Positions 628 through 61,400 of a stretch of DNA of 64,000 nt are shown piece by piece. Every line of letters starts with the position of its first letter. Within the stretch, counting starts at the first letter, position 1. Under the pieces are notes generated by a model that was not told where the DNA came from, searched no databases, and saw only the letters and a list, made by a program, of their open reading frames with translations. Origin of the DNA: Trissonchulus latispiculum (Eukaryota > Nematoda > Enoplea > Enoplida > Ironidae); assembly GCA_030248195.1 (NCBI GenBank), contig JASAND010004308.1:1-64000 (forward strand), written 5' to 3'. Position numbers and translations under genes: made by a program.

Positions 628-2083
628 AAAAGGACAGAAGGACAAGAAACAAAAATGCTCCTCTGGAGCATGAAAAAAGTAATATGGGTGATGGTGAGGT
701 TGCAAAATCAAGAGAGGACTAGTCTTTAAAATGCTTAATATGGGGCTAGGTTCAAAAATAGAAGAGGACTAGGTTGTGAGCGAATTAATATGGGCACAGC
801 TTCGCCGAACAACCCATATTCGCGGGATTTCACGCTTCGTCTTAGCTTTTGTCGCATACAGAGCTATCAATTTCAGTCAGTAATAAGAAAGTTAAGAAGT
901 TGAATACGTACTCATTGAATACAGTTGTTTGCATATACGTACTCTGTTAGACTGGCTAGGAATGCATATGTGCGTAAATTATCATCATTTGGTCGGGTTT
1001 AACTGCGGCAAGCAACGAGAAGACATCTAAGGACATGAGGCTAAAGCTATTGGTTCAAGCAGGGAGGAAATAGAAGGTCAGAGTCCTAAGATTATTCTTG
1101 AAATATAAATTTTCCGTAGAAATGAATAAAGCGCACTGGTTAGTATAAAACGTTTCTCGAAGAAAAAGTTTAAACTAAACGTAGCGTGGATGGATATGCA
1201 TACTGATATACATTTATAAACCGCGAATATGGGTTGTTCGGCGAAGCTGTGCCCATATTAATTCGCTCACAACCTAGTCCTCTTCTATTTTCGAACCTAG
1301 CCCCATATTACTTTTTTCATGCTCCAGAGGAGCATTTTTGTTTCTTGTTTCTACTTTCTCCGATCTCGCTGATTTTCACATATTTAATTGTCCAAATGGT
1401 ATATTTTAACGAGTTTTTAAAATTAAAGTCGTAACTCTTACGGTTGTCGAGTAATTTCACCTCAAAGTTGAGATTTCATGTTTTAAACATAGGAAATTTA
1501 GAAAGTTGTCATTTTGTCGCGTGCGCCAAAAAAATCTCCCGACAAACGTTGATAAATCTGGACAAATTATACATTAAAATAACGCTGAAATGTTAAACTG
1601 CGGTATCTTGGAATTAGAATTTTAACTTAGGCCTTTAAAATTTTTTAATTAATTTTTGAAGAATTAAAATTTAACGTGATGCTAAAATCGTGTTAAATTT
1701 TTATTCTTCAAAAATTAATTAAAAAATGTTAAAGGCCTAAATTAAAATTCTAATTCGAAGATACTGCTGTTTAGCATTTCAGCGTTATTTTAGTGTATAA
1801 TTTGCTCAGATTCATCAACGTTTGTCGGGAGATTTTTTTGGCGCACGCGAAAAAATGACAACTCTCTAAATTTCCTATGTTTAACACATGAAATCTCAAC
1901 TTTGAGGTGAAATTACTCGACAACCGTAAGAGTTACGACTTTAATTTTAAAAAACTCGTTAAAATATAACATTTGGACAATTAAATATGTGAAAATCAGC
2001 GAGACTGGAGAAAGTAGAAAAAATGGCCAAAAAATGGACCCCCCCTCTTAAGTCTGCTCCTAAGCGCGCTTAGGAGTGTACTC
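628..2083. mobile_element. Composite of two foldback elements upstream of the ITPA exon
   Basis: Two long inverted repeats lie side by side. In the first, 651-829 pairs with about 1221-1345 (for example GCGAATTAATATGGGC against its complement near 1250). In the second, about 1349-1660 pairs with 1700-2023 around a centre near 1690. The whole block is bracketed by an exact 12 bp direct repeat, AGGAGAATCTTT, at 616-627 and 2084-2095. No transposase frame is present. The superfamily is not clear because 12 bp is an unusual duplication length for a DNA transposon. Confidence 0.6.
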
Positions 2084-2131
2084 AGGAGAATCTTTTGAAA
2101 CGCCTCCCTGAATCTTTTATTTTCATTTCAG

Positions 2132-2457
2132 GTGTTTATGTCAAGTGGTTCCTGAAGAAACTGGGCCCTGCAGGTTTGCATAAGCTGTTGACGGGTTGGG
2201 AAGATAAGTCAGGCTATGCCCTCTGCACCTTTGCTTACACTCATGGACCCTCGGAACCAGTCAGACTCTTTCAGGGTCGTTGTGATGGGCAGATTGTAGA
2301 GCCAAGAGGCCCCCCTGATTTCGGATGGGATCCCTGTTTTCAGCCTGACGGTTTTGAACTGACTTACGCTGAAATGTCCAAAGAACAGAAAAATCAGATC
2401 TCACATAGAGCTCGTGCTCTCGCCAAACTGAAATCCGATTTGCTGACAATATCTTAA
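2132..2457 (+). CDS. ITPA: Inosine triphosphate pyrophosphatase, last coding exon (partial)
   Basis: ITPA hydrolyses ITP, dITP and XTP to monophosphates in the cytosol, keeping deaminated purines out of nucleic acids. The exon encodes the C-terminal half of the HAM1/ITPA fold. Visible family hallmarks are [15 protein letters not shown], the [13 protein letters not shown] strand, [17 protein letters not shown] (substrate-binding loop with the FGWDP signature) and SHRARAL near the end. The acceptor is TTTCATTTCAG ending at 2131; the exon enters in phase 1 (GT completes a Gly codon) and ends at TAA 2455-2457. A possible poly(A) signal ATTAAA is at 2630-2635. The 5' exons were not found in 1-2131; they probably lie to the left. 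The foldback block at 628-2083 ends only 48 nt before the exon. Confidence 0.93.
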
Positions 2458-12055: not shown

Positions 12056-21311
<9,256 letters not shown>

Positions 21312-25626: not shown

Positions 25627-27608
25627 GGGGGGGCTGGAATACATAGTTGAATGAAGCGTTACATTTTGTGAAATTACTGAATCGATCTAAAGTTCTCCGT
25701 TTGTTGTCCGGAGCTTTTCTGGGCGCGTGGGAACAGAACTGGGAAAACAATCTAAAACGGAAACTTAAAACCAGCCGCCTTAAAACACCACGCTCAGGGT
25801 AAGGCAGAATCACTGGTCTGGTAGGTGCAATTCTGCTAGGTCACAATTCTTACGTCATTACGCAATTGGGTGCAGATTGGGTACTGCAGTTCCTCGAATA
25901 ATGAAAAACGTTAGTTATTATAGTGAAGTTCAGCTCTCTGGTTTAATACACCTTCTGTTTAATTTTGGATGAATGGATGGATGGACTCACCAAGGTTTAA
26001 AATATTGTCATGGTAGGACAGCTTGCTCAGAGTTTGAAGTAACTACTAACTAAATGGAGTTTGTTTTGCAATCGTTACTTCAATCGCAAAAATTAGAACT
26101 GTCCTGGAAGTTTGGGAGTGCGAAAATGTCATTTATGAGTTAATCGTATTAAGCTTTGCACCTGGCTAATATCAGATTCTGTAAGTTTCTTTGAGCTTAA
26201 AAAGTTTGCAGTCACTTCAGAAGAATTAGTTTGCATGAAAGCTCAGAATTTCCAGACTATTTCAATTTCTTTTTATCTCTGCTGAATAGAACCTTTGTCG
26301 TGTCATTTACGTCAAAATTCTGAGTCTTGCTTTAATTTCTATAGAAATTTTTATTTTTGTCCCCCCTTTGGAAGTCCCACCGTCGAACACTGTTTATTCT
26401 TTTTCAATAGTTCAGCTCAGATCTCATCAGTAATCAAGCGTGAAGGGATGTAGTCTGCAAACTTTGTTTTTAATGTATAGCTCTTAGGCTGCTTCCTCAA
26501 AGCTCGATTGTGGTGAGGGTTGTTTGTCTTATGTTAAGCAAACAACTTTGGGAACAGCAACATCGCAACAATTAAGGTAAAAACATGAACCTATGTAGGG
26601 GTCGGGTCGGGAGGCGGTTGAACAACCCCTCTTCTGGACGGGCGGTCTATCTCTTAGTGTGGGTGAAACACACGTTTGCTTGGAGTACCTATGTACTGTA
26701 CATCTAGACAGCTGAGAAATGAGGATGAAAACCTTAAATGCATTCTGTCTTGTCCCGATTAACAGGAGAATTAAATCTATGGTAGTGTCGGATTTCGACG
26801 GCATTAAAGAGTAATAAACATACATTACTTACATGCGTAGCCCTGGGTGGCTTCTTCAGAAAAATTATAAGGGGATGTACGTTGAATCCAAATTTTCGAG
26901 GGGCTTTTGCCATGTGCATCAATCAATGTAATTTTTCACAAAATTAACTTTACTATTAATAAACATTTCTATTAATGCTTTGAAGAAAATTTAAAATGTT
27001 CGTCAGTTTTTATGAAAAAACCTCGAAGTTCACCATAGTGCAGAAACTATAGTGCAAAAATTACTTTTCTGGCCATTTTTGCTTACCCCTTGTCATTTTT
27101 TACCCCTTGCCACTGACGGCAGTATGACTTCTTGTATGCCTTGTCTGGGCTGAGGTGGGTATATGGACCTTATCGACCTCCTTACCTCTCCGTCTTCTTC
27201 TATGTTATATATAAGGTTTAAACAGCTTTAAAATGAGCCGAATTAAAATTGTAATAAACATTTCCAATAATGCTTATTGTTCTTTAGTAACGGATTAAAT
27301 GGTTTAAAACTAATTTAATTTAGTCCGGCTATAACCTATATATTGTAATTTCTAACCCGTTTAAGGGGGGGGGGGTTCGCCGGGCACCAAATTTTCAGTC
27401 TCCGATTTTGCTCATTTTCGGATATAATATGCTTCCATATGTGTCCAAAAGCAAGACAAATTTTTTGAGTCCAGGTTCAATCCAGTTAAGAGATATTGCA
27501 GTTCAAATCATTGCAATTTTGTATTTACGTCATTTTGAAGTCGCGCAAAGATGACAAAAGCCTTACGGCATGACAAATACCTATGTTTAAATACTCTATA
27601 TACTTGTA
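25627..27608. other. Intergenic, no gene seen
   Basis: Open frames on either strand are short and lack family motifs and splice context. A G run at about 27365-27376 with the nearby TTCGCCGGGCACC looks like the end of a G/C-run repeat. Confidence 0.45.
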
Positions 27609-29822
27609 CATAGCTAGAGGCCTGCACGGGCCGAATTTTTGCGGCCCGACCCGGCCCGTGAAAAATTTAGGTCGGCCCGGCCCGGTAAAAATTTTTTCCA
27701 ACCCATCCGGCCCGACCCGTTGAGTTTTATGCGCATAAATATATATATACAATTTCCATTTTTTTGAAAAGCTGATTTGTGTATCAGACTACTGCTATAA
27801 GTAATTTTCTGGTCCAACCAAACTTCCAAAGGAAACCGTTTTATTAAAGTTGGAATAAATAACTAACTATATACATAATAACTAACTTTCACTAAGCCTT
27901 CGAATGCTTTCACTTTCACTTTGAATGCATTTTAAATTTAAAATTTTATTGAACTGCAACGCTCTGTATAGATTCGAGCAGCATGAATGTTGAGTATAAC
28001 ATGTATGCATGCATCAGAAATATTCCACTCCCTGTCATCACAATAGAGGCCTGCACGGGCCGAATTTTTGCGGCCCGGCCCGGCCCGGCCCGTGAGAAAT
28101 TTTTCTCGGCCCGCCCGGCCCGGCCCGTCAACTGCTTCGGCCCGGCCCGGCCCGGCCCGTCAGATGCTTCGGCCCGGCCCGGCCCGGCCCGTCAAAATTT
28201 TCGGCCCGCCGGAGCCGCGAAATTTTTTTGTCCCAAAATTCAAAATTGCGTAAATATTTTTCTTAAGCTTGTTTTTCCAAACAGAATCTCTGCTTTTCAG
28301 TGATTTTTCTAGGAAAAGTGTGTTTTTCCTAAAAAATGATTTTCTAGTTTTTAATGGTTTTTAAACGCAGTTTTAAGGACACAATTTTTGTCGTTCTGCA
28401 AATGAAAGCAAATAGATACTGACGTGTATTGACAATTTGTATGACTGGAGCGTTAGAAAAACAAAAACATTTAAAATTCCCTAAAAGGTTACAGTGGCAG
28501 CATTTAAATATTGTACTCTTATTAAACCAGTTGAAATTCCGTAAAGTGCACATTTTTATTAGAATTAGTCGAGAATTAAACGCATTATAATTAGAAATAA
28601 AGAACTTTAGAAAGATGCAAATGCGCAGAAGGATCAATTTCAAAGAATAGTAAATCTTTGCTTCAGAAATCCAAAACTTTGATTCTTTAAACAGCGTTTT
28701 CTAAGAAATGTAAGGTTTTAAAAAGACATTGCGAACACATTAAAACCAAACCAAATCAAAAATACTTACACTGTTCCTAATACCGTATATTACCCTAATT
28801 CAAAGTTTTATGTTCTTATGTAGTAAACGCTAAACTGACTTAGATGAATTGAGGATTTGACATCAAAGATGAAACTGGCGACAAATACATATTAATCATG
28901 AAAATAAAATGCTGAAGTTAACTGCGGAAAATCAGGGTTACAGTGAACGAAACATATTTCGGAAACACAAAACCTTTTAAGCTAAAATATGAGTTACTGT
29001 TTTACAGTTAAATCATTCAAAAAACTGATGGCGGGCCGGACTGTCGGCCCGCGGCCCGGCCCGGCCCGTGAGCTTCGCCCCGCGGCCCGCCCCGGCCCGT
29101 GAACTTTGGTCGTCGGCCCGCCCGGCCCGGCCCGCGGGCCGGGCCGGGCCGGGCCGGGCCGCGGGCCGTAATGCAGGCCTCTACATCACAACGCTTCGTA
29201 ATTTAAAATGTAAGAATATTTACTTGACAATAAGTAATTACAGCAATTTTCGTAAAATTTAATAGCAAAATTTTACCGGGTTTCAAATAAAGTTTAAAAA
29301 ATTTTTGGTGCAAATGTCCAAGTCCATTTTCCTGTTATTTGTTGCTTCTGCTTCCCGGTTACAATTTATAATTTCTGGACATTTTCGAATTGTATTAATT
29401 TGTCTGCAATAAAGAACCGTTAATTAAATTCATATGGTAATTAGTTGAAATTATTGTAGCAACTGTAAAGTACACAAATGCAAGTTAAACTAACTGGCGC
29501 AGTTCCAGACTAAATGCAGCCAAAAATCAAATTTCACAGCAAGAAAAATTAAAATTTTCTGCAATAAATAAAAAGATGTACAGATAATAATTGACTTAAA
29601 TGGTAAGAAACCAAGCTTGAAACTAAATTTAAATCTAAAACTTAAATATTCTAATTTAATTTAATTTTATAGATTAGAAAAATGTGGAAAAGTCGATCAC
29701 GGGCCGGACATTCGGCCCGTGGCCCGGCCCGGCCCGTGAGCTTCGGCCCGCGGCCCGACCCGGCCCGTAAACTTTGGTCGTCGGCCCGCCCGGCCCGGCC
29801 CGCGGGCCGAAATGCAGGCCTA
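27609..29822. mobile_element. hAT-like GGCCCG element, outer copy, split by an inner copy
   Basis: The left end contains TAGAGGCCTGCACGGGCCG (from 27615) and the right end is CGGGCCGAAATGCAGGCCTA. The flanks carry TACTTGTA (27601-27608 and 29823-29830), an 8 bp duplication; six extra bases (CATAGC) precede the left terminal repeat. Both ends hold GGCCCGGCCCG arrays. A second, more intact copy is inserted at 28044-29183. Reading frames through the arrays give Pro/Gly/Arg-rich peptides and are not genes. Confidence 0.75.
28044..29183. mobile_element. hAT-like GGCCCG element, inner copy
   Basis: The perfect terminal inverted repeat TAGAGGCCTGCA / TGCAGGCCTCTA has the exact 8 bp duplication CATCACAA (28036-28043 and 29184-29191). 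About 160 bp of GGCCCGGCCCG array sits at each end around an AT-rich core of about 0.8 kb. The same core is present at 48394-49480. It is non-autonomous. Confidence 0.9.
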
Positions 29823-30050
29823 TACTTGTAGCTGTAGCTGATTACTGCATAAATTACAATAACATGCCAAGCAAGCCAAGCCAAACGAGGTGTGAACACT
29901 TTGGTCAAGCTCATTCCGATTGTTATTTAGTTCAAACTATAACTTGCTCTAACGAGTAAATGTTTTTACATATATATAGTTTTCAGGAAAAGATGCGTTG
30001 TGTAGACTTAATGAACAACCTTGTAAGTAAAATTTTCACATTGCAGAATC

Positions 30051-30068
30051 ATGTTATCGTATAAATAA
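30051..30068 (+). promoter_or_regulatory. Five-codon upstream ORF overlapping the selenoprotein start
   Basis: ATG at 30051 opens a five-codon frame whose TAA (30066-30068) shares its last base with the main ATG (TAATG). A TTGCAG acceptor-like site ends at 30046, so the 5' UTR may be spliced just before this. The arrangement suggests that translation of the main frame depends on reinitiation or leaky scanning; this is inference from sequence only. Confidence 0.4.
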
Positions 30069-33000
30069 TGACAGAATTGACTGCGGATATTGAAGAACTC
30101 AAGTGTTCACATGAACACTTGATCAGTACTTTGCACGATCTCAGTAAAGAGTTGGAATCAAGGCTTCAGATTACACAGGAAGAATTTAAGGAGGCGAAGG
30201 AACAAGGAAAGGAAGCTGTTGAAGAATTCGTTGCCAAACACTTTGGATTTGACGATGTCTTATATAATGTGCCCTCCGCTTATGTCACAGCTCTGGAAGA
30301 AATGGGAGTCATAAATTTAGACGAATTTGAGGAAGTAATCTCTGAAGGTGCCAACAATAATTGTAAGTTTTCAATACTACTAGAAGACGATTGTAAATTT
30401 TGATGCTCTACTAGATTTAAGGGGGGGGGGGGCGACTAAAATGGGGTGCCCCGAATTTGTCCGATTGGTCTACTTTTTGGTGAAGTTATAGAGCATGGGT
30501 ATGGTCAAAAAATACTTGGTCGTTGGTTCTTAGCTGCCTTCCAGCCATGTGCAGAGGTCGCCTTTATGTGCGCGACACACCTTTTTCACAACTACCAACA
30601 TAATTAGTTAAAATTCTCTGCTGGCAGCAAGACCCTAGCTTCAAGCTTGTCATTGGCCAATATGATTTGGCACATGTGCCCCTATCTGCGGAAAAATACC
30701 AGACGTCTGTATCTTATCTGTATCTAAGGGAATTACTGTTCAAAGTTGAAGTTTCGGCAAAATTTTGAAAATTTTTTGCTAACGAAAGGAATATGTATTT
30801 TATTACTGGTGCGAGCTATAAGGCTGTAATTTGGCCCATACAGAGGCCCTATAGGAGTACTCATTTGTGCCGAATAGCAAGAAATTCTTCCGCGTAAAAA
30901 AAATTTTATGTCAACTTTAATCTTCAAAAATTGCCAAAATCGCCATTTTCAATGTGTCGGATCCTGTGTAAAGGCTTTCTGCAGCCATAGAAGTAGCAAA
31001 CCTTCACTAATCGAGCTGAAATCGTTTGTGAGTGTGTGTTCAACCACGCTGAGTTCAAATATCTCAAATTTAAATTTCAAAAAATTTGATTTTTTCGATT
31101 TCTGGGGTACTATTGCAAAAAAATGGCTATTTTGTCAATTTTTAAAGATTAAAGTTGACATAAAAATTTTTTCACGCGGCAGAATTTGTTGCCATTTGGC
31201 ACAAATGAGTATTCCTGTAGGGCCTCTGTATTTGCCAAATTACAGCTTTATAGCTCGCACCAGTAATAAAATATTCCTTTCGTTTTCTCAAAATTTTGCC
31301 GAAACTTCAACTTTGAACAGTAATTCCCTTAGATGCAGATAAGATATAGACGTGCGGTATTTTTCCGCAGATAGGGGCACATGTGCCAAATCATATTGGC
31401 CAATGACAAGCTTGAAGCTAGGGTCTTGCTGCCAGCAGAGAATTTTAGTTAATTATGTTGGTAGTTGTGAAAACTGGGGGGTCGTGCACATAAACGCGAC
31501 CCCTGCACGTGGCTGGAAGGCAGCTAAGAACCAACGACCAAGTATTTTTTGACCACACCCGTGCTCTATGACTTCGCCAAAACGTAGGCCAATTGGACAA
31601 AGTCGGGCAAAAGTTTAGTCGCCCCCCTTAACATCATTTATTTTCAACTCGGAAATCGAGTTCAACACCGAGTTTGACAGCTGATCTAGTGGATGAATGG
31701 ATGGATGAGGTCCGTGGTATTTTCTCATTCTTATGCTTTAGCCAAAAACCAACTCGTCCCGTGTGGGTGTTTTAGACGTATGCCTGAGCGATTCAGTTAG
31801 ATGACTAACCAGGGAGACGGGAGGGGGTCTGATGCCCCGAGTACCGTCGAAATAGGGCCAAAGAGAGAGATAGAGATAGGGGAAGCTTAGAAATTCAGTA
31901 TCAGGACTGGAACTAAACAAGTGGTTGCATCCGAGATCGAACCAGGTCGCTACTTCTCTAGTGTGAAACGTAATACTGCTACACCGCAGAACCAGCAGAT
32001 TAACTGCTAATTCAGGCTGTATCAATCTTTTCTACCTCTGCTTTCGTCACATCATCACTATTCATGACATTACATGCATTCTCTTTCTCTAAAACCCATC
32101 CTGTTTCTGCCGTCCCCGTTTTTTTGTGCGCAGAAATAAACTAATCTGCTTGACTTTTGGATTTACGCAAGGTTATTGTAGTGTTGGCACTGCGTGCCGC
32201 GCAACCAACTTAGATGATGGTAGTAACTTTAATGAATAATGAATACCAACTTATTCAAACTCTATCACAGTTACGATCAGATCGTTCTAAGGTAGAACTC
32301 TAACCGTGATAGATGGAATCCCCAGTTACAACATTTCCCCCCTTGTTAAGAAACACAAAGTTCACAACACAAAAACGTAACAATACAGCAAATTTCCGCG
32401 GTAGTAGTAGATATGTACTACAGTTACAAAGTTGAAGAGGATTTGTTACGTATATTTACAAAAGAAGTTAGGTCTTATGAGATTAAATTTCAAGGATAGG
32501 TGTGTAAACATTTCGGTTTTCATCAGTTTCTTTTCTCCTCCAGAAAGTGTTATAATGGTATCGTTCGATGATTCTTGATTGTCCGATGGTTGGTTGAGTA
32601 GGTCGGCATTTGACGGATGGCTGGTTAAGCTGATCGGAATCTGGCGGATAAAACTAAGAACAAGGTTATGCCGTCTTAGATTTTGGTGTGATCAAACCTA
32701 TTAGGTACTGACTGACTCCCTCGGCGACACAAAAGTCAGGCCATGACTTGCGGTAACGGTAGTGAAGCACGATGGTCGATGCTTCGGTAACGGTAGTAAG
32801 AAAGCGCGATGGTCGATGCTTCCTCCTGTGTCCCGAGAAAGTAGCACCAAACGATCAGATGAAATACCGCTTTGATTTAAAGGCAGAGTGCTAGATTTAG
32901 AGTATGGTGGTAAATACTGGTAGATTTTCACGACGGTCGATACGTCTCAAAACCGACCCAACGCTTGTTCATTCGCCGGTATGGCGACATCATGCTTTGA

Positions 33001-35066
33001 TGGTAGAAACGCACACCATACCATCAGTTATCTACCGGCAGAGATTGCATGGGTGCCTTAGCAACCCTCGTCGCCATAAATGTAGTGTTGGCACTGCGTG
33101 CCGAGCAACCAACTTAGATGATGGTAGTAACTTTAATGAATAACGAATAACAACTTATGCAAACTATCACAGTTACGATCAGATCATTCTAACTAAGGTC
33201 TGATTCTAAGGTAGAACTCTAACCGTGATAGATGGAATCCCCAGTTACAACAGTTAAGAGTTTGTCTGAGACTTCGGCTCGGCTTGAAGTCGGTATGCGT
33301 TTATGCAGATGTGTGTAACCTTCTGAATTTTAGCTTTCACACCTGTCGCCGTTCGTCGCTTCGTCTGTTGGCACTGCTAGAACTCTTAGTAAAAAAGCTG
33401 TCGGTTTACAGCCAGGTTACGTCTGGTAAGACAGCAAGATAAGAGTAAGACAGTAAGAAAGAAAGCCTGGCGCAGCAATGGGTGGATAGGTACCTAAAAT
33501 GATATTTTTTGAAAGGCAAAACCTTTTTATTTCAGTTGCTGTCCGAGAACTTCAGGATAAAATACGAATGCAGGAGGAAAAATGGGACGAGTTTTTACGA
33601 AATATTGATGAAAAGGTATTTATGATGAACAGTCCAAAGTCAGGAATTCTAATTCATGCCATTAAGAAGGGTGAGTTTTAAAAGTTTAAAAGTTTATTAA
33701 AAATTTTTGTTTATTCATTATTTACTATGTTAGGTCTACTGGCCTGTAGTGTTTGAGGCCGGCCGGCGGCCGGCCGCCGGCCGACGACTTTTGCTCGCCG
33801 GCCGGCCGCCGGCTGGGATGCAAATCACCAATCAGAAATTTACAAAACAGAGCAACTAAGTTAAAACGCACTCCAAATCTAGTTATGTTAATTTTTTATG
33901 CTATGCTGTGCTATTTTTCCAAGATAACAACCGCAAATAAATATCTTAGCAGTTATGATAACTGCACTGCAAACTGCTCTAGGCCGGCCGCCGGCCGACC
34001 CACGGGCTCACCGGCCGCCGGCCGGCCGGTCCATGGGTTCGGCCGGGCCGGCCGGCCTCAAACACTACTGGCTTGTATATCTACTTAAAACTCTCTTTTC
34101 TTCAAGTAACTTTAGTATTGGATTGTTTCTGGAGCTCATTCATATACATAACATAGTTATGTTGTTTTTGAAACCGTTTTCAACGTTTGATGTTGATTTG
34201 AAGCCATTTAACGTGCACTGCAAATTATTAGCAGCACCTTATTTTAATTAATTTTAATTAATTTTAATTTTAATTAGCAGCGCTTTATTAATTTTATTAG
34301 TTGGGATATGTTTGCTAAGCTTTCACGTTCTGAGATTTTCCAATCTCTACTTGATAGTGTATGGTAAGTAAGCAAGGTCATCAATGAAACCAAAGATTTT
34401 AATTTTGCACTTTGAGCAATGATTTTTTGTATTTCAAATTTTGATATATTTTTAGTTTATTTTTGTTATTTATTAGGCCTAATCAGTGTGATCGACTGTG
34501 ATACTGGAAACAAAATATTTCTGGATCAGTGCCTAAATAATCGTGCTGGCACCTGCACCCTATTTGTCTTCATTCGATTCTATGGATGACCCTACTGTAT
34601 TGATCATGTCAAGGCCCTGCAGGAAACTGTAGCTGACTTTCAACAGGTTAACTGTAACATTGTTGTGGTTTGCAAGGGCAGTGCTCCAGGCGGCATCAAA
34701 TGGCGCCAACTGGCCGGCGTTACCCTCCCCCTTCTGGCGGATACAGAAAGTCTTTTTATCAGCTTTTTGGGATTTCAACGGTCTATTTATAATGTCTGTC
34801 AGACGAAGCTGCAGAAATTATTTGCCTCCATGACCTCAAACGGAAAATCCTTAAACATTCCAAATCTGGTGGATGATAACATTCATGATATTCTACAGAT
34901 GGGCGGTGACGTTATTGTGGATCACAGAACGAAGAAAATTGTTTACTATTTTCAGAGTCAGTTCTCGGAGCAGAGACCTCCTGTTGAGGAAATTTTAGGC
35001 AAAGTTACTGAACATGTCAAACATAGACAGACCAATTCAGGCAGTTCATTCTGCGGTCTTCTATAG
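30068..35066 (+). CDS. SelL/peroxiredoxin-like selenoprotein with in-frame TGA (U-P-Y-C)
   Basis: Exons 30068-30362, 33536-33670 and 34477-35066 join in frame to give 339 residues ending in TAG. The TGA at 34587-34589 (residue 181) is read as selenocysteine: it lies in FIRFYG-U-PYC after a hydrophobic beta strand, exactly where thioredoxin-fold peroxiredoxin-like proteins (PRXL2/AAED1/SelL) have their redox C-x-x-C or U-x-x-U motif. Downstream family features are NCNIVVVCKGS, LPLLADTES and a GGDVIVDHRTKKIVYYF strand. Residues 1-140 are acidic and helical, probably coiled coil, with no signal peptide, so it is probably cytosolic. The last exon stays open on both sides of the TGA and a SECIS-like hairpin follows at 35197. 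The start is the first ATG of a long open exon (A at -3). SelL normally has two Sec residues; here the second position is Cys. A pseudogene is unlikely because everything else is intact. Confidence 0.87.
30417..31631. mobile_element. piggyBac-like foldback element (selenoprotein intron 1)
   Basis: The sequence runs TTAA-GGGGGG...CGACTAAA to TTTAGTCGCCCCCC-TTAA, so the ends are inverted repeats and the flanking TTAA (30417-30420, 31628-31631) is the piggyBac target. Arms of about 0.5 kb pair almost throughout (for example ACTTGGTCGTTGGTTCTTAG with its complement near 31520). No transposase is present. It starts 54 bp after the exon 1 donor. Confidence 0.75.
31738..31999 (-). mobile_element. 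tRNA-derived SINE (selenoprotein intron 1)
   Basis: On the minus strand, the 5' end at about 31995 reads TTCTGCGGTGTAGCAGTATT (A-box-like), followed about 45 nt later by CTGGTTCGATCTCGG (B box), then a non-tRNA body of about 200 bp. This is the layout of a tRNA-derived SINE. The exact tRNA parent and the 3' tail are not clear. Confidence 0.5.
32177..33252. mobile_element. Miniature LTR-type element (selenoprotein intron 1)
   Basis: Two direct repeats, 32177-32333 and 33081-33252, share TGTAGTGTTGGCACTGCGTG at the start and ACCGTGATAGATGGAATCCC before the end ...TTACAACA. They begin with TG and end with CA like LTRs. The right copy is 15 bp longer, with local changes including an extra CTAAGGTCTGATT-type stretch. 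Flanking GTTAT / GTTAA could be a 5 bp duplication with one change. The internal 0.75 kb has no gag-pol frame and contains a local duplication (GCGATGGTCGATGCTTC). The terminal repeat itself can form a hairpin (CTATCACAGTTAC / ACCGTGATAG). Confidence 0.6.
33747..34067. mobile_element. hAT-like element with GGCCGG arrays (selenoprotein intron 2)
   Basis: The ends TAGTGTTTGAGGCCGGCC and GGCCGGCCTCAAACACTA are perfect inverted repeats. Flanks CTGGCCTG (33739-33746) and CTGGCTTG (34068-34075) are an 8 bp duplication with one difference. The ends are GGCCGGCGGCC arrays; the core of about 150 bp is AT-rich. Confidence 0.85.
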
Positions 35067-35196
35067 ATGGAAGATGGAACAACAAAGCTGACAGTAAGGA
35101 TGAAAAATAATCAGAAATTGATGACAATAACTGTGCAGAACTCACCAAAATCCTAACTTTATTTGGTCCAGTTCAGTTCATGTTTTAGCCTACCGT

Positions 35197-35239
35197 ATGA
35201 CAATTCGCAGAAAAACCGCTATGGTGCTGCGAATTTGAT
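35197..35239 (+). promoter_or_regulatory. SECIS-like element in the selenoprotein 3' UTR
   Basis: ATGA (35197-35200) and TGAT (35236-35239) face each other as the SECIS quartet. Between them a perfect 9 bp stem, AATTCGCAG (35202-35210) with CTGCGAATT (35227-35235), closes an apical loop that begins with AAAAA. The quartet-to-AA distance is 10 nt, within the usual eukaryotic range. A short lower helix ACC/GGT is possible. It lies 130 nt after the stop codon. It is required for Sec insertion at the TGA at 34587. Confidence 0.85.
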
Positions 35240-38200
35240 GGTTTCCTTTGATGTTAAGAATGCATTATGATTGTTTTGTACACATATTGTAATTCAAGTT
35301 TGTTCGTGCAAATATGACAACTAATGAAAGCCATAGATATAGGTTTATCAAGTGTATTATACTAATGGTGTTGCTATGAAAATCCGGTTTTCCGGTCGCT
35401 GCCGTCGCCGCTGACTGGCATGCCAGGTAGGAGGGGCGATCGAGAAGAACACCGCCAGGGGAGGCGTCTGAGTCTGTGGTCCATTCGGGTAACATGTAGC
35501 ATTCGGCAACATTCGGCCATCGCAGGCTGCATTTCCCCAGTCTTGCTTCCAATGAAGGTCGAGATTTGTGTTCAATATTAGTAACATGGCCAGCCAGCCT
35601 TAGTCCAAGAATTACGACGCAGGCATCCATTTTCAAAGACTTTCAGTTTACCGATATCGGAGCTGCGTAAAGGTGTTGGTTCTAGGCCGTAAATCCGCTA
35701 CTGCAATTTTAAACTGCTAAAACGGCCTGTTACAGAAAGGCGCGTCGACGATCACAGAGATCGCATACTCTTTCGTACACTAATCACAACGGCGAAGGTA
35801 AATTCAGTTGAAAAAATGAATGTCCATGGACTAAGTGGCTAGAACTAGCGGAGTCAAAATCAAGATGAAATGTTACAGAGGGCCGTGAACCGTTCCCCAA
35901 AAATAGAATGGGGCCGGGCAGTTTAATGGTCCATTACAGGCTCCGAACAACTTTACATTGGCCACTTATATTTGCATTCAACTTCACTGCTTGTAGGCCG
36001 ACCTGTTACCGACTGGGCGGGGCGTTCTGTATTTGATCAGGCAGCCTATTTATGAACAACACTACGATGGTAGTGCATATTGTTGTTTAGAATATATCTC
36101 CCGAACATATATGTAGTGATGGTAACGGTCTTGGCTTTCCGTGTACTGGAAGGTCCTGTGGCAATTTGCAATCACGAATACGGCGGCTACAATACAAACT
36201 AAGCCAGTAATGACAATAGCCAATCAATAGTACATAGTTTGGATGCGGCAATGGTTTACTCTCAATGAATTAAAATAATTAATGCATATATTTCTTAACT
36301 TCTGGGGCAGCAACCAGCATACATTAACACGGGATCCGATTTTGGTTGGTCTACTCTGACTTCAACGAAGAGTATGTACCTCTAAAAAATTACAAAATTT
36401 TCAGAGCGTCTACTCCAAAATTATCAAAAATTGGAAATTTTCACATTTTTTATCCAAAAACTAGGAATTTTAAAACAATTGTTAGCCACTTTTATGAAAT
36501 TTTTGTAAAGAAACACCGCTCAAGTTTTCTTAAAGTGCACACTTTGTGGTAGAAGGGTGCCTCTTTTGCCTCCCGGCTGAGAGATTTTTCTTCCCTTCTC
36601 GCCGAAGAGGGTCTATTTTTCGGTTTGAGGAGGTGGGCTTTTCACCTTCCGACCTGGAATTTTAAGACAACTAGCAGCACTGTCGCGTCGCCGATGGAAA
36701 TAGTTTCTTTTGCATATGGCATCTAAACCTTTCAGATTTTGGTATTTTAAACGTTAGGATGAACAATGTAAGGTCGATTATTCAATTCGTAGACGATACT
36801 AATATAGACCTTTGTCTTCCGCGCCGGTTGCCGGTTGTAGGCGTTCGGTGGACGGTCGGCCCACACTAATGGTCCGGATGACTGCCTTTCTTGACCATCA
36901 GTTCTCAAGCACAGACTGAGTGTTACCCATGAAACTAAGGCTCATGGAAGATTGAAAAAACGGAAGCAGACATTTTAACTTTCTTGTTATCGAGAACCTG
37001 CTGACTGTAATACCGTATCGTATCGTAATACAATAACTAAAATTGTGAAAAGTGTGACATTCTTAGTTATCAGCTGGCAGTGTAGCTGTACAATAACGGC
37101 TGGCTGACCCCCAAAACTGAGCTTCACTTCAAACAGTTTTGCGCGATATACGATTGCGTGTTGTAGCTCAAAGCAGGCACAAATTTCGCAAACGAGTAGT
37201 GCTGCTTGCGAGCTTCAACACGTAAACGTAGAGCGAGTGAGCGTACTACACAAACTGGGTATTCAGTTGTGGAGAGGTCACTAGGTACTCACTTGTGGGG
37301 GGGTAAGCCGTTATTGTGAAGAGATGATGTGTGCCAGCTGATAACTACGCTTGTCATACTCGGCACTCTGTAGCGCTCGAGAAGGACTCATGTTCTGGAT
37401 TTGCCAATTTATATCTAAGAAATATATCTCAAGAGACTATTAGAGAAAAACTAAACTTTTATTTTTCAGCCTTCGTCATTTGAAACTCATCTTTTCATCT
37501 ATTTCTTAACATTCCTTCACAACTTTTGTCATCACAAAACAAAGGAAACTTTCATCAGCCAACCGATTTATTAACCAGCTAGGTCTACTGTGTGACTTTG
37601 TGAAACTAAAAAGTGTTATTTTCAAATTCTTTAATTTGCTACGATGGAGTGCAATAAACAATCATAGATTATGTATTCAATATTAGATTTCTAGCTGAAT
37701 TATTGAAAAACTTATCTTGTATTACTGTGAGGTCTTTCCCTTCTTTGCTCTCACTAAATTGTTTCCTTTCACTTTTCTAGTGTTTTCTTTTGCTCATCTT
37801 TTTCTAGTCAATTAAAGTGAATCTCAGAATAAATATGGAATATCAGTTTATTTGCCAATCTCAGTGTTGAGGAGACTCGCTCTTTCAACTGTTAAAGCTT
37901 ACCTATGAAGGCTTGACGGAAATGCGTACGTACGGAACAAGAACGTAGAGGTATGCCTAGGCTTTAGAGACCAGACTAGACAGGGAAAAATAACATGATT
38001 CACAATATTGAACCAAGAGGCGAGCGCCCTTTGCCATTCCATTCATTCAATTTGCTTCTGCTGTAGTAAGCAGGTCCGTATAGCTATTTCAGGTTTGGAA
38101 GCTCTTCTCTGCTCTCCAGCGGCAAATCCTTCCCCCCCCCTTTCCTATCAAGCGACAGATTTTATACCAGTTTCTTTTCCTAAAGGTAATTTTGTATTCA

Positions 38201-58400: not shown

Positions 58401-61400
58401 AATGAGCGCTGCCCTAACCGTTAATGTACACGATATTAGCTTATAGGCGGCAAGTTTCTTTGATCTCATGACTTTAAAAACCCTGTACAGATCGAAGGAA
58501 AAATTTTCAACATGTGGTTCAAGAAGGAAAAATGTTCAGTATTTCCGAAAGTATCTAATGCAATCAAAAAATTACAATTTAACCCTGTCCCTTAATACCC
58601 TGAATTGTCCCTACTTATCCCCCCAGTGTCCCTTAATAGCAGAAACTGCTGTCCCTTATTATCTGGAAGAGGGCATCTTTCAAACTTGGCCGTAAAACCC
58701 CGGAAAAACAAAATACTTAAAAAAGAGCGACGCTACAATGTTCTGCACATTTTGCTCTTTTAAATGATGCCAGGTTTGCAGTATAAATCGCAAAAATGAG
58801 TATAGTAGCTCAAATTAAAATCTTCGAAATTTGGAAAAACGGGACGCTCTGAGAATAGGGAAAACGACCGCTTCTACATAATTTTTTATATCTTTTGCTT
58901 GGATAGCAATTATCTCGAGGTCGAGACGTCATCCGATAGAGGAGAAATAGGGCTTCTATTTAATACCTAATTAGAAGTATTTAGTTGATTCATGTCATGT
59001 GACCGATGCAAAAACCAAAACATTGTCCCTTATTACCAGGTGTCCCTTATTACCCCGTTTTACCCTATTATGTTAAATTAATTTGTATTAAATTATGCGG
59101 CCAGTAGAAGTGGGACTACCGTCTTGTCCTGTCCTGTCTTGAGTGCAGCTTTTACAATTAAAAAATGTGTGCTGCGATAAATATCGAACAGTTCCGATTA
59201 AAAAATTTCCAAAACACTTTGACCTCGTTTTTTAATTTTTATTTATTTTGATAATTTTATTTGTCCTTTTAGTTTAGATACGTTTTGATCATTATTTTAT
59301 TTTTCAGGTATATCAACAGCGAATGCCCCGAGGCAGTCTTCACTTTGTGCCTCCAGTCCATCGTCGGCGTCATGATTCAGTCCTTCATGGCCGGCGTCGT
59401 CTTTGCCAAACTCGCCCGACCAAAGAAACGAGCTGAGACTCTCATATTTTCCAAAAACGCTGTCATCTATTTGCGTGACAACAAACTGTGTTTTCTGTTT
59501 CGAGTGGGGGACATGCGAAAGTCCCACCTGGTTGAGGCTCACATTAGACTACAGATGATCAAAAAACGAGTAACTGCTGAGGGTGAACTTTTGCCCTTCC
59601 ATCAGTTCGACATGGACGTGGGCTATGACGCGGGCTGGGACCGGATTTTTCTGGTTTGGCCCATCACCATTTGTCACGTGATCGACGAAAATAGCCCTCT
59701 ATTTGAGTACGCTGCAGAGGACCTGTTGACTGCTCGATTTGAAGTCGTGGCGATCCTTGAAGGGATTGTGGAAAGTACGGGTATGACGACTCAAGCCAGG
59801 ACGTCCTATCTTCCATCAGAAATTCTCTGGGGTCACAGGTCAAACGATATGACTGTTTGTGTGTTCAATTTTTGTTGGAACAAATAGCACAAACAGCAAG
59901 TTACCTAAAAAGGATACTGTCTGTCTAACAAGTTTTACATATTCTGCAATTTTTTAGGAATTTGTTGAAATCATATTTTCAATACGAGGTTTTAAGGACG
60001 GGGTATTCAGGGAAAATATACGGCAATTAAAACCAATTCCGCAGTACGCAGTAGTTGTTGTTGTAGTAAGTAACCAATCACGATAATTACAGTGATTTTT
60101 CCTTTTTCAGATTTGAAAAATTGGTGACTTATCAGAGGGAAAATGGAGAATATAAAATTGACTATGCAAGATTCCACAACACTTATCCTGTAGAAACTCC
60201 TTCTTGCTCAGCTAAGGAACTGGAGGAAACTATGGTATGCTCACATAAACTTATAAATTCTTGTATTTTTGACTGTGACGCGACTATTGCCGTAACACCT
60301 TTAATTTTCTTGTGTATTTTTCGGTAAAACCTAAAAGTTTATAACATCTTCAGCCATTCCTGAACTTTACACTAACAATTAGTCTTTAAGTACAAAATTT
60401 AACCTTTAGAAACTTGGGGTACATGGTTTTAGCGGACTCATAAGAGAGCGTGGAAACATCAGCAGAGCATCATGACAAAAAGAGCCACAGTTTCACTTCT
60501 ATACTTTGATTCCTACATTTTCAGATCCATGTAATCAGGTACTAAAATTATAGGCTTCTGTGCCTCTCGTGGGAACCCAACAAAATTTAATCCTTAATGA
60601 CTTTTCTTCCAGCGTTAAGTGGCTGCCTGTTGAGTAAACTTTTTACAGTCTTAACAATAGAGAAGATCAATTCAAGGTCAAATTGAAATCTGCCTATTTA
60701 CAAATGTTACGTTTGTTTCAGTTTCAGTAAAATTACACTTTAGTCTGATTAGTTAAAAGGCTAACAGTCAATACAAGGAAAGAATTATTCATCACTACGT
60801 AGCATTAACTTTATCTATGGATTAGGTAACATTTGTGCAGGTGTGGGGACCTAAATAGGCAGATTTCAATTTGACCTTGAATTGATCTTCTCTATTGTTA
60901 TAAGACTGTAAAAGTTTACTCAGCAGGCAGCCACTTAACGCTGGAAGAAAAGTCATTAAGGATTAAATTTTGCTGGGTCCCCACGAGAGGCACAGAAGCC
61001 AAATTATATTTTAATTTCAGAGCCGAAACGGTTCCAATGACGACGAAAACGGTATCACAACTTTGACCCTGGACGGGGAAACATTTGACGGACTGAGCGG
61101 ATCCTTCAATCAGGAGGTGGTCGATGCCCTTGTAAAGGACCGACGCCTGTCCGCCAACGCTCTGACCGGACAGCTAAGCTTCATACCTCATCAAACGGGT
61201 GTCCTCGGTGCCCAGCTTAACCCTGGTGCTCCCCAGATTTTCCCTGTAAACGGACAAGTTAGACAGTGCCTTTCTGGTGACGGCTCGCAAGATGACTCCG
61301 GGGTGGCTCAGGTCAAGGAGACCTCTGAGGGCACTCCGGCCACTACCCAGGCTGACAACCTCGCGGTTCCAGTTCAACTGGTCAGGCCTCAGATTATCAT

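Follow-up and report, generated by a model that had tools for sequence, protein, structure and literature searches.

We analysed a stretch of 64,000 nucleotides from the nematode Trissonchulus latispiculum (GenBank assembly GCA_030248195.1, contig JASAND010004308.1, positions 1 to 64,000 of the forward strand), referred to as the window. A TGA at 34587-34589 very probably encodes selenocysteine (Sec, U) at the active site of a redox enzyme from this animal. We hold it highly likely that the locus is a functional three-exon animal selenoprotein gene of a SelL-like branch, in which Sec would be directed to codon 181 by a selenocysteine insertion sequence (SECIS). This reading draws on the frame, the position of the TGA in the U-x-x-C motif, a SECIS-like element, paralogs with the same TGA, selection on these paralogs, and host genes for tRNA-Sec and SEPSECS, all taken from the sequence. 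A selenoprotein gene with a U-x-x-C centre in a thioredoxin-type fold had already been proposed in a sequence-only reading of the window, and our results support it; the two upstream coding exons and the SECIS-like element were absent from that reading and are added here.

The in-frame TGA and a probable selenocysteine signal

The locus reads as a predicted three-exon gene of 1020 nt (exons joined) encoding 339 residues, with the following features.

30068..30362, + strand: first predicted coding exon, starting with an ATG two codons after an in-frame TAA (donor GTAAGT at 30363, phase 1)
33536..33670, + strand: second predicted coding exon, QEEKWDEFLRNIDEK (phase 1 at either end; acceptor TTTCAG, donor GTGAGT)
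34477..35066, + strand: last coding exon, with the peroxiredoxin-like domain (acceptor AG at 34475-34476; stop TAG at 35064-35066)
34587..34589, + strand: TGA read as probable selenocysteine, residue 181, first position of U-x-x-C (from the frame, paralogs, bacterial loci and PRXL2B alignment)
34596..34598, + strand: TGT, Cys184, second position of U-x-x-C (TGA, Sec, at this place in paralogs C9401, C7887 and C16196)
35052..35063, + strand: C-terminal CGLL, a CaaX-like tail (CTLL and CSIL in sisters C7887 and C16196)
35189..35250, + strand: SECIS-like element in the presumed 3′ untranslated region (UTR) (Rfam SECIS_1, 25.1 bits; pattern scan compared with shuffles)

The sole internal stop in the 339 joined codons is the TGA at codon 181. 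Splice sites and phases are consistent across the three predicted exons, both introns being phase 1. The last exon does start at 34477, as proposed earlier, and it is open on both sides of the TGA: its frame begins at 34479, reads LISVIDCDTGNKIFLDQCLNNRAGTCTLFVFIRFYG-U-PYC-IDHVKALQ... and ends at the TAG. In a DNA search of the host assembly (733.8 Mb, 21,732 contigs) with the last exon and its 3′ flank, only the window locus was matched, indicating a single copy.

Conserved coding sequence is found on both sides of the in-frame TGA, as expected of a selenoprotein. The coding stretch 3′ of the TGA passes Pfam by itself (PF13911, 37.7 bits for a cut-off of 27) and read-through of the TGA lifts PF00578 from 26.5 to 38.1 bits (cut-off 26); thus both sides contribute. 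The TGA aligns with the first redox Cys of human PRXL2B and with the same position in bacterial relatives and host paralogs, and a location outside the motif was rejected. It occupies the first motif position in all eight distinct host loci and in 13 of the 14 bacterial loci described below.

The SECIS_1 match, which lies on the sense strand and begins 122 nt past the stop, scored 25.1 bits (E 0.077 over 3 kb). Its core (35197-35239) runs from ATGAC through a perfect helix of 9 bp and an A-rich apical loop to TGAT. With Rfam at E up to 10, 35189-35250 was the only SECIS_1 match in the whole window; at the default threshold no Rfam match of any kind was obtained in it. When both window strands were scanned for perfect SECIS patterns with helices of 9 bp or more, this segment alone qualified. 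Sixty dinucleotide-shuffled strands gave seven such patterns, none with four or more GC pairs, and over the 1.5 kb past the stop the antisense strand showed no SECIS pattern. The predicted fold includes the SECIS helix, with a modestly unusual energy (z -1.57; 16 of 200 shuffles fold as well). The element therefore has the pattern and the place in the 3′ region of a SECIS, though with a sub-gathering Rfam score.

The host makes Sec, as judged by its tRNA-Sec (TCA) and SEPSECS genes. Four tRNA-Sec loci with anticodon TCA scored 75.8-80.5 bits, a fifth match over the cut-off being a tRNA-Ser according to ARAGORN, and SEPSECS exons were found on two contigs (14 matches). Many sub-cut-off matches to the tRNA-Sec model also occur on contigs C17841, C17466 and C3629, spaced about 0.9-1.1 kb or more, as in tandem arrays.

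A search of the host assembly with the SelL-related family model NF040769 yielded 13 matches, spread over 10 contigs and all below the family cut-off. Two contig pairs have near-identical domains (95% and 98%) and are presumably haplotype copies, leaving eight distinct loci. Five carry UxxC (UPYC in the window; UPPC in C5161, C8631, C13132 and C1757) and three carry UxxU (C9401 ULPU, C7887 UPDU and C16196 UIDU). The paralogs sharing the TGA are 30-38% identical to the window protein. The pair C7887/C16196 retains both TGAs at Ks 0.82 upstream and 0.88 downstream, with Ka/Ks of 0.094 and 0.115; for C9401/C7845 Ka/Ks was 0.21 and 0.31. C1757 and C19011, with four differences, are too close to judge selection, and in UPPC pairs Ks is saturated downstream of the TGA.

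A SECIS-like element was found downstream of all eight distinct loci, in three of them by pattern alone. Rfam placed SECIS_1 over the gathering score downstream of C7887 (39.6 bits) and C8631 (38.6 bits), and at lower scores downstream of C9401 and C7845 (28.0 and 28.4 bits) and of C16196 (32.2 bits, sense strand). The pattern scan adds elements at C5161 and C1757, both with GTGA cores, and at C13132. With a stricter pattern over 1.5 kb after the stop, six of nine sense stretches were positive and none of nine antisense stretches. C1757 (locus L015) and C19011 (L017) share 98% protein identity, yet the SECIS pattern is present in C1757 only.

Several observations weigh against a functional selenoprotein gene. 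The SECIS_1 score of the window element (25.1) is below the Rfam gathering score of 35. Selection on the window copy was judged against the distant C7887 (Ka/Ks 0.51 upstream and 0.29 downstream, Ks 1.0-2.0), and because of this distance it is less well shown than in the paralogs. The C16196 element lies about 3.5 kb past the stop, so that its connection with the gene is a presumption. With E up to 5, Rfam listed no SECIS_1 for C5161, C1757, C13132 or C19011, and the near-copy C19011 lacks one by pattern as well. Two Rfam elements also escape the strict pattern, those of C16196 and of C7887; the latter is recovered once a bulge is permitted. A pseudogene or misassembly, where the TGA would be a true stop and the downstream similarity a relic, would fit the sub-threshold SECIS score. 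This is opposed by the 339 codons free of any other stop or frameshift, the intact splice sites, a TGA shared by eight loci with 30-38% identity to the window, the confinement of the SECIS pattern to the sense strand and the low Ka/Ks of the sister pair on both sides of its TGAs. The domain is also without frameshift in the host paralogs; the sequence-only reading had named a frameshifted pseudogene in related species as a refuting finding. Relic or misassembly was thus rejected as hardly credible, and a functional gene is the interpretation we retain.

The three-exon model is a prediction, with outside support from the regions upstream of the paralogous domains. The exon 1 product is an N-terminal region of no known family, and nothing over cut-off was obtained for this region in the family libraries. 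Its residues 22-96 resemble a colinear stretch upstream of C7887 (26.7% identity, E 4e-5, calculated against nine loci with the low-complexity filter and composition correction off). The exon 2 motif W-x-x-[FL]-[LI]-x-x-[VIL]-D also occurs upstream of the domain in C9401, C8631, C7887 and C13132; the C13132 match contains a stop, so that an exon edge or a chance match is possible there. No Pfam family beyond the two of the domain passed its cut-off in the three forward frames of 27001-36000. A possible tiny exon (29986-30021), between TTTTCAG and GTAAGT, lies just upstream of exon 1 and is perhaps 5′ UTR. The GGCCGGCC-rich stretch 33742-34072 of intron 2, some 331 bp long with inverted repeats GCC(T/A)GTAGTGTTTGAGGCCGGCCGGC at its borders, looks like a small transposable element.

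Relatives and the second redox position

Bacterial relatives were collected by a genome scan with a C-terminal pattern only and were hence not chosen by their redox motif. Among the 14 loci, 13 carry UxxC (TGA first, Cys second), one (L021) carries CxxC and none carries UxxU; two of the loci, L023 and L025, are near-identical. A protein search with an alignment of 12 of these loci (without L024 and L025) gave 343 proteins, of which 120 were listed. Most of the listed relatives (101/120) are only 126-158 residues long, and two of three examined begin at or after the redox motif. Twelve database proteins were fetched: six bacterial proteins and a fish protein carry CxxC, three have W at the first position and two begin too late to show it. 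Cys stands at the second position in all ten that span the motif. The many Cys forms among database proteins can be explained by gene calling, which favours them.

The fish protein (P0107, Polymixia lowei) exceeds the SelL cut-off with 127.1 bits and is a Cys-only form, CLLC. In P0002, P0012 and P0020, W occupies the first redox position (GWIPC, GWLPC) and is probably a TGA translated as Trp. Other searches gave no closer relatives: no useful match was found in the protein database with P0001 at 1e-3 or with the 339-residue protein at E 10, no relative was found in viral contigs, and the PDB searched with the single sequence returned only a chance poxvirus match. A tblastn search of plasmids detected only weak generic redoxins, four of which were fetched and three used as controls.

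The history of the motif was examined on a tree computed after masking both redox columns; it omits the near-copies C7845 and C19011 and includes L024. The eight host rows stand apart from bacteria (support 96/96) and seven of them form a branch supported at 100/99, within which the window groups with the two UxxU sisters C7887 and C16196 (97/92). In two trees including PRXL2B, which likewise omit the two near-copies and one of which lacks L024, the position of C9401 is not resolved. On this tree the second motif position changes at least twice, and a single UxxU group, meaning one origin, is rejected (approximately unbiased (AU) test, p 0.0047). By hand-counted parsimony with bacteria outside, two gains of the second Sec require two changes, against three for an animal UxxU ancestor.

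The sequence-only reading had offered two possibilities for the window copy, a separate branch or an intermediate between diselenide and C-x-x-C members. The first is supported. The second is not supported, with UxxC in five of eight host and 13 of 14 bacterial loci, the rejection of a single UxxU group, and parsimony favouring two gains of the second Sec. Its evolutionary version, a U-x-x-U ancestor whose second Sec was lost to Cys in the window copy, has several points in its favour: the grouping with two UxxU sisters, a Cys codon (TGT) one change from TGA, the one-step margin of the two-gain history, and the occurrence of UxxU SelL in fish, invertebrates and marine bacteria, as stated in an excerpt of PMC2397514, so that our bacterial sample may miss such forms. 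Against it stand Cys at the second position in the four UPPC paralogs too, the lack of UxxU among the 14 bacterial loci, Cys second in every motif-spanning protein of the 12 fetched, and the AU result. A one-off loss of Sec was rejected, and we consider the loss scenario unlikely. UxxC is thus probably the older state and not an intermediate between UxxU and CxxC; given the one-step margin and the reported marine bacterial UxxU SelL, this is a preference and not a proof.

Family placement and fold

The domain finds its best curated family in NF040769, SelL-related redox protein (E 1e-19, 70.8 bits), with the next NCBIfam match far behind (E 0.079). A generic ResA/TlpA protein was ruled out, since at 0.001 the window domain matched no NCBIfam family other than NF040769. 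The score falls short of the curated cut-off of 120 bits (71.0 for the exon-3 domain), and the two-Sec motif U-x-x-U of SelL is seen in three paralogs whereas the window has U-P-Y-C. The NF040769 score alone does not discriminate, with 54.4 bits for PRXL2B and 67.7 bits for a generic plasmid redoxin (L001); two other peroxiredoxin-like proteins scored 41.9 and 37.7 bits, and family members 127.1 bits (P0107) and 151.3 bits (bacterial P0003).

The fold is of the thioredoxin/peroxiredoxin type, with the motif at the place of the catalytic CxxC. In the profile comparison PRXL2B came out as the best relative of known structure (9us9, E 2.1e-6), with its FGCVVC lined up with the motif. The AlphaFold model (predicted local distance difference test (pLDDT) 88.6, predicted template modelling (TM) score 0.86) has a helix at 38-49 directly after the Sec, and again PRXL2B is its best PDB match (9usa, E 1.2e-10, TM 0.66/0.78). 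As many as 528 PDB chains match the model at E ≤0.001, the fold being common to many families.

All eight host rows share a His three residues past the motif, the D of Q-x-GGD, and RP without exception, and none of these occurs in the aligned PRXL2B stretch. These SelL-shared residues were read off the bacterial rows and P0107; the bacterial rows had been fetched by the QxGGD pattern, so that this part is selected.

The branch could instead belong to the PRXL2/SelU group, some members of which are also selenoproteins. In line with this, PF13911 is over its cut-off (about 37 bits for 27), PRXL2B is the best solved structure by both profile and fold, and the SelL cut-off is missed. PF13911 does not discriminate, since listed relatives of the SelL-like family also carry it; an exon-level PF13911 search of the host gave five matches, all on SelL-like contigs. 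A tree with PRXL2B and generic peroxiredoxin-like proteins sampled eight of the 14 bacterial loci, five of the 12 database proteins and three of the four plasmid loci; in it the SelL-like group was weakly supported (52/82), with long branches. Joining the seven-row animal branch with PRXL2B was not the best tree and was not rejected (AU p 0.168). In this comparison PRXL2B stood for the PRXL2/SelU group. The invariant His, D and RP, absent from PRXL2B, and the lead of SelL among NCBIfam matches argue against membership of the PRXL2/SelU group, which we regard as quite improbable.

Taken together, these results suggest a SelL-like protein on a separate branch. The SelL/peroxiredoxin-like type proposed in the sequence-only reading therefore stands as a type, while strict membership of SelL is not secured (70.8 bits against 120).

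Proposed chemistry and known systems

In the mechanism that we propose, the SECIS element in the 3′ UTR would direct Sec into codon 181. The U-P-Y-C centre would lie at the start of the first long helix of the thioredoxin/peroxiredoxin-like fold, and from fold and position Sec181 would be the most likely nucleophile attacking a peroxide or disulfide. Cys184 would then resolve Sec181 as a selenenylsulfide, which cellular thiol systems could reduce. CaaX-like tails are present in the window (CGLL), C7887 (CTLL) and C16196 (CSIL) and not in the other five distinct loci. By the CaaX rule for the type of prenylation these tails fit a geranylgeranylated box, and CGLL may anchor the protein at a membrane. 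In the UxxU sisters the product would be a diselenide, which in SelL is described as hard to reduce (excerpt of PMC2397514).

Elsewhere in the window, a Ham1/ITPA-like gene exon lies at 2074-2454 (+ strand; PF01725, E 9.5e-31) and an inward rectifier potassium channel exon at 59273-59884 (+ strand; PF17655, E 3e-61). On both strands, strong palindromes at 1597-1770 and 18231-18401 match models of plant miRNAs, in every case with less than the gathering score; they are probably inverted-repeat elements.

SelL reportedly gave the first diselenide bond known from a natural protein. The abstract of the 2007 SelL paper reportedly mentions SelL-like proteins in which Cys takes the place of one or both Sec. 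In excerpts, prokaryotic peroxiredoxin-like oxidoreductases are tabulated with 'UxxC, UxxU' (PMC9312934, PMC13188914), a marine metagenome survey places UxxU within a peroxiredoxin-like family (PMC2398784), and SelL is given as carrying a diselenide bond in the natural protein (PMC2397514). U-x-x-C alone is therefore not new, given the prokaryotic listings and the one-Sec SelL-like proteins reportedly noted in 2007. Literature searches on SelL, UxxC, prenylated selenoproteins and SelL in molluscs and annelids returned no title on the animal branch. As far as these listings show, what would be new is an animal branch that has UxxC as well as UxxU members, together with the N-terminal region and the CaaX-like tail. 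Eight related loci in one genome also stand out, at most one SelL per genome being given in the excerpt of a six-invertebrate survey, which may have counted UxxC forms elsewhere (PMC3473315).

We would tentatively go further, to a proposal that is possible but still doubtful: an undescribed animal SelL-like branch with its N-terminal region and, in the window and two sisters, a prenylation tail. A second Sec would have replaced the resolving Cys in this branch, at least twice across the family in this genome, turning a selenenylsulfide enzyme into a diselenide one. If so, one genome would hold natural pairs of the two chemistries, possibly at membranes. UxxC and UxxU paralogs on one fold in one animal are useful for asking what the second Sec does. 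The evidence points to a repeated switch, probably in the direction of more Sec, and so runs counter to the common account of Sec being lost to Cys. Short database relatives beginning at or after the motif show how such genes escape annotation, and SELENOL is listed among the worst annotated families in Ensembl (excerpt of PMC12822975).

Compared with known systems, the window protein shares with SelL/SELENOL and the bacterial NF040769 proteins the Sec at the first redox position, the peroxiredoxin/thioredoxin-like fold, the His past the motif, Q-x-GGD and RP. As in eukaryotic SelL, for which a single SECIS is given in an excerpt of PMC3316567, a SECIS-like element is placed in the 3′ UTR. It differs from SelL in having U-x-x-C instead of U-x-x-U, in its score (70.8 bits against 120), and in its extra N-terminal region and CaaX-like C-terminus. 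PRXL2B, the prostamide/prostaglandin F synthase of the PRXL2/SelU group (PF13911), is alike in fold and in the place of the redox motif, but its motif is CxxC and it has neither the His nor the D after GG nor RP. Human MIEN1 is a Cys form. As abstracts describe it, MIEN1/Rdx12 of the SelW family is likewise thioredoxin-like, belongs to a selenoprotein family and is prenylated by geranylgeranyltransferase I, and so provides a precedent for the CaaX-like tail in what is a different family. Finally, the prokaryotic peroxiredoxin-like thiol:disulfide oxidoreductases combine both motif states in one group, as in this nematode, but they are prokaryotic and are likened here by a table entry in the excerpted sources (PMC9312934, PMC13188914), not as established SelL.

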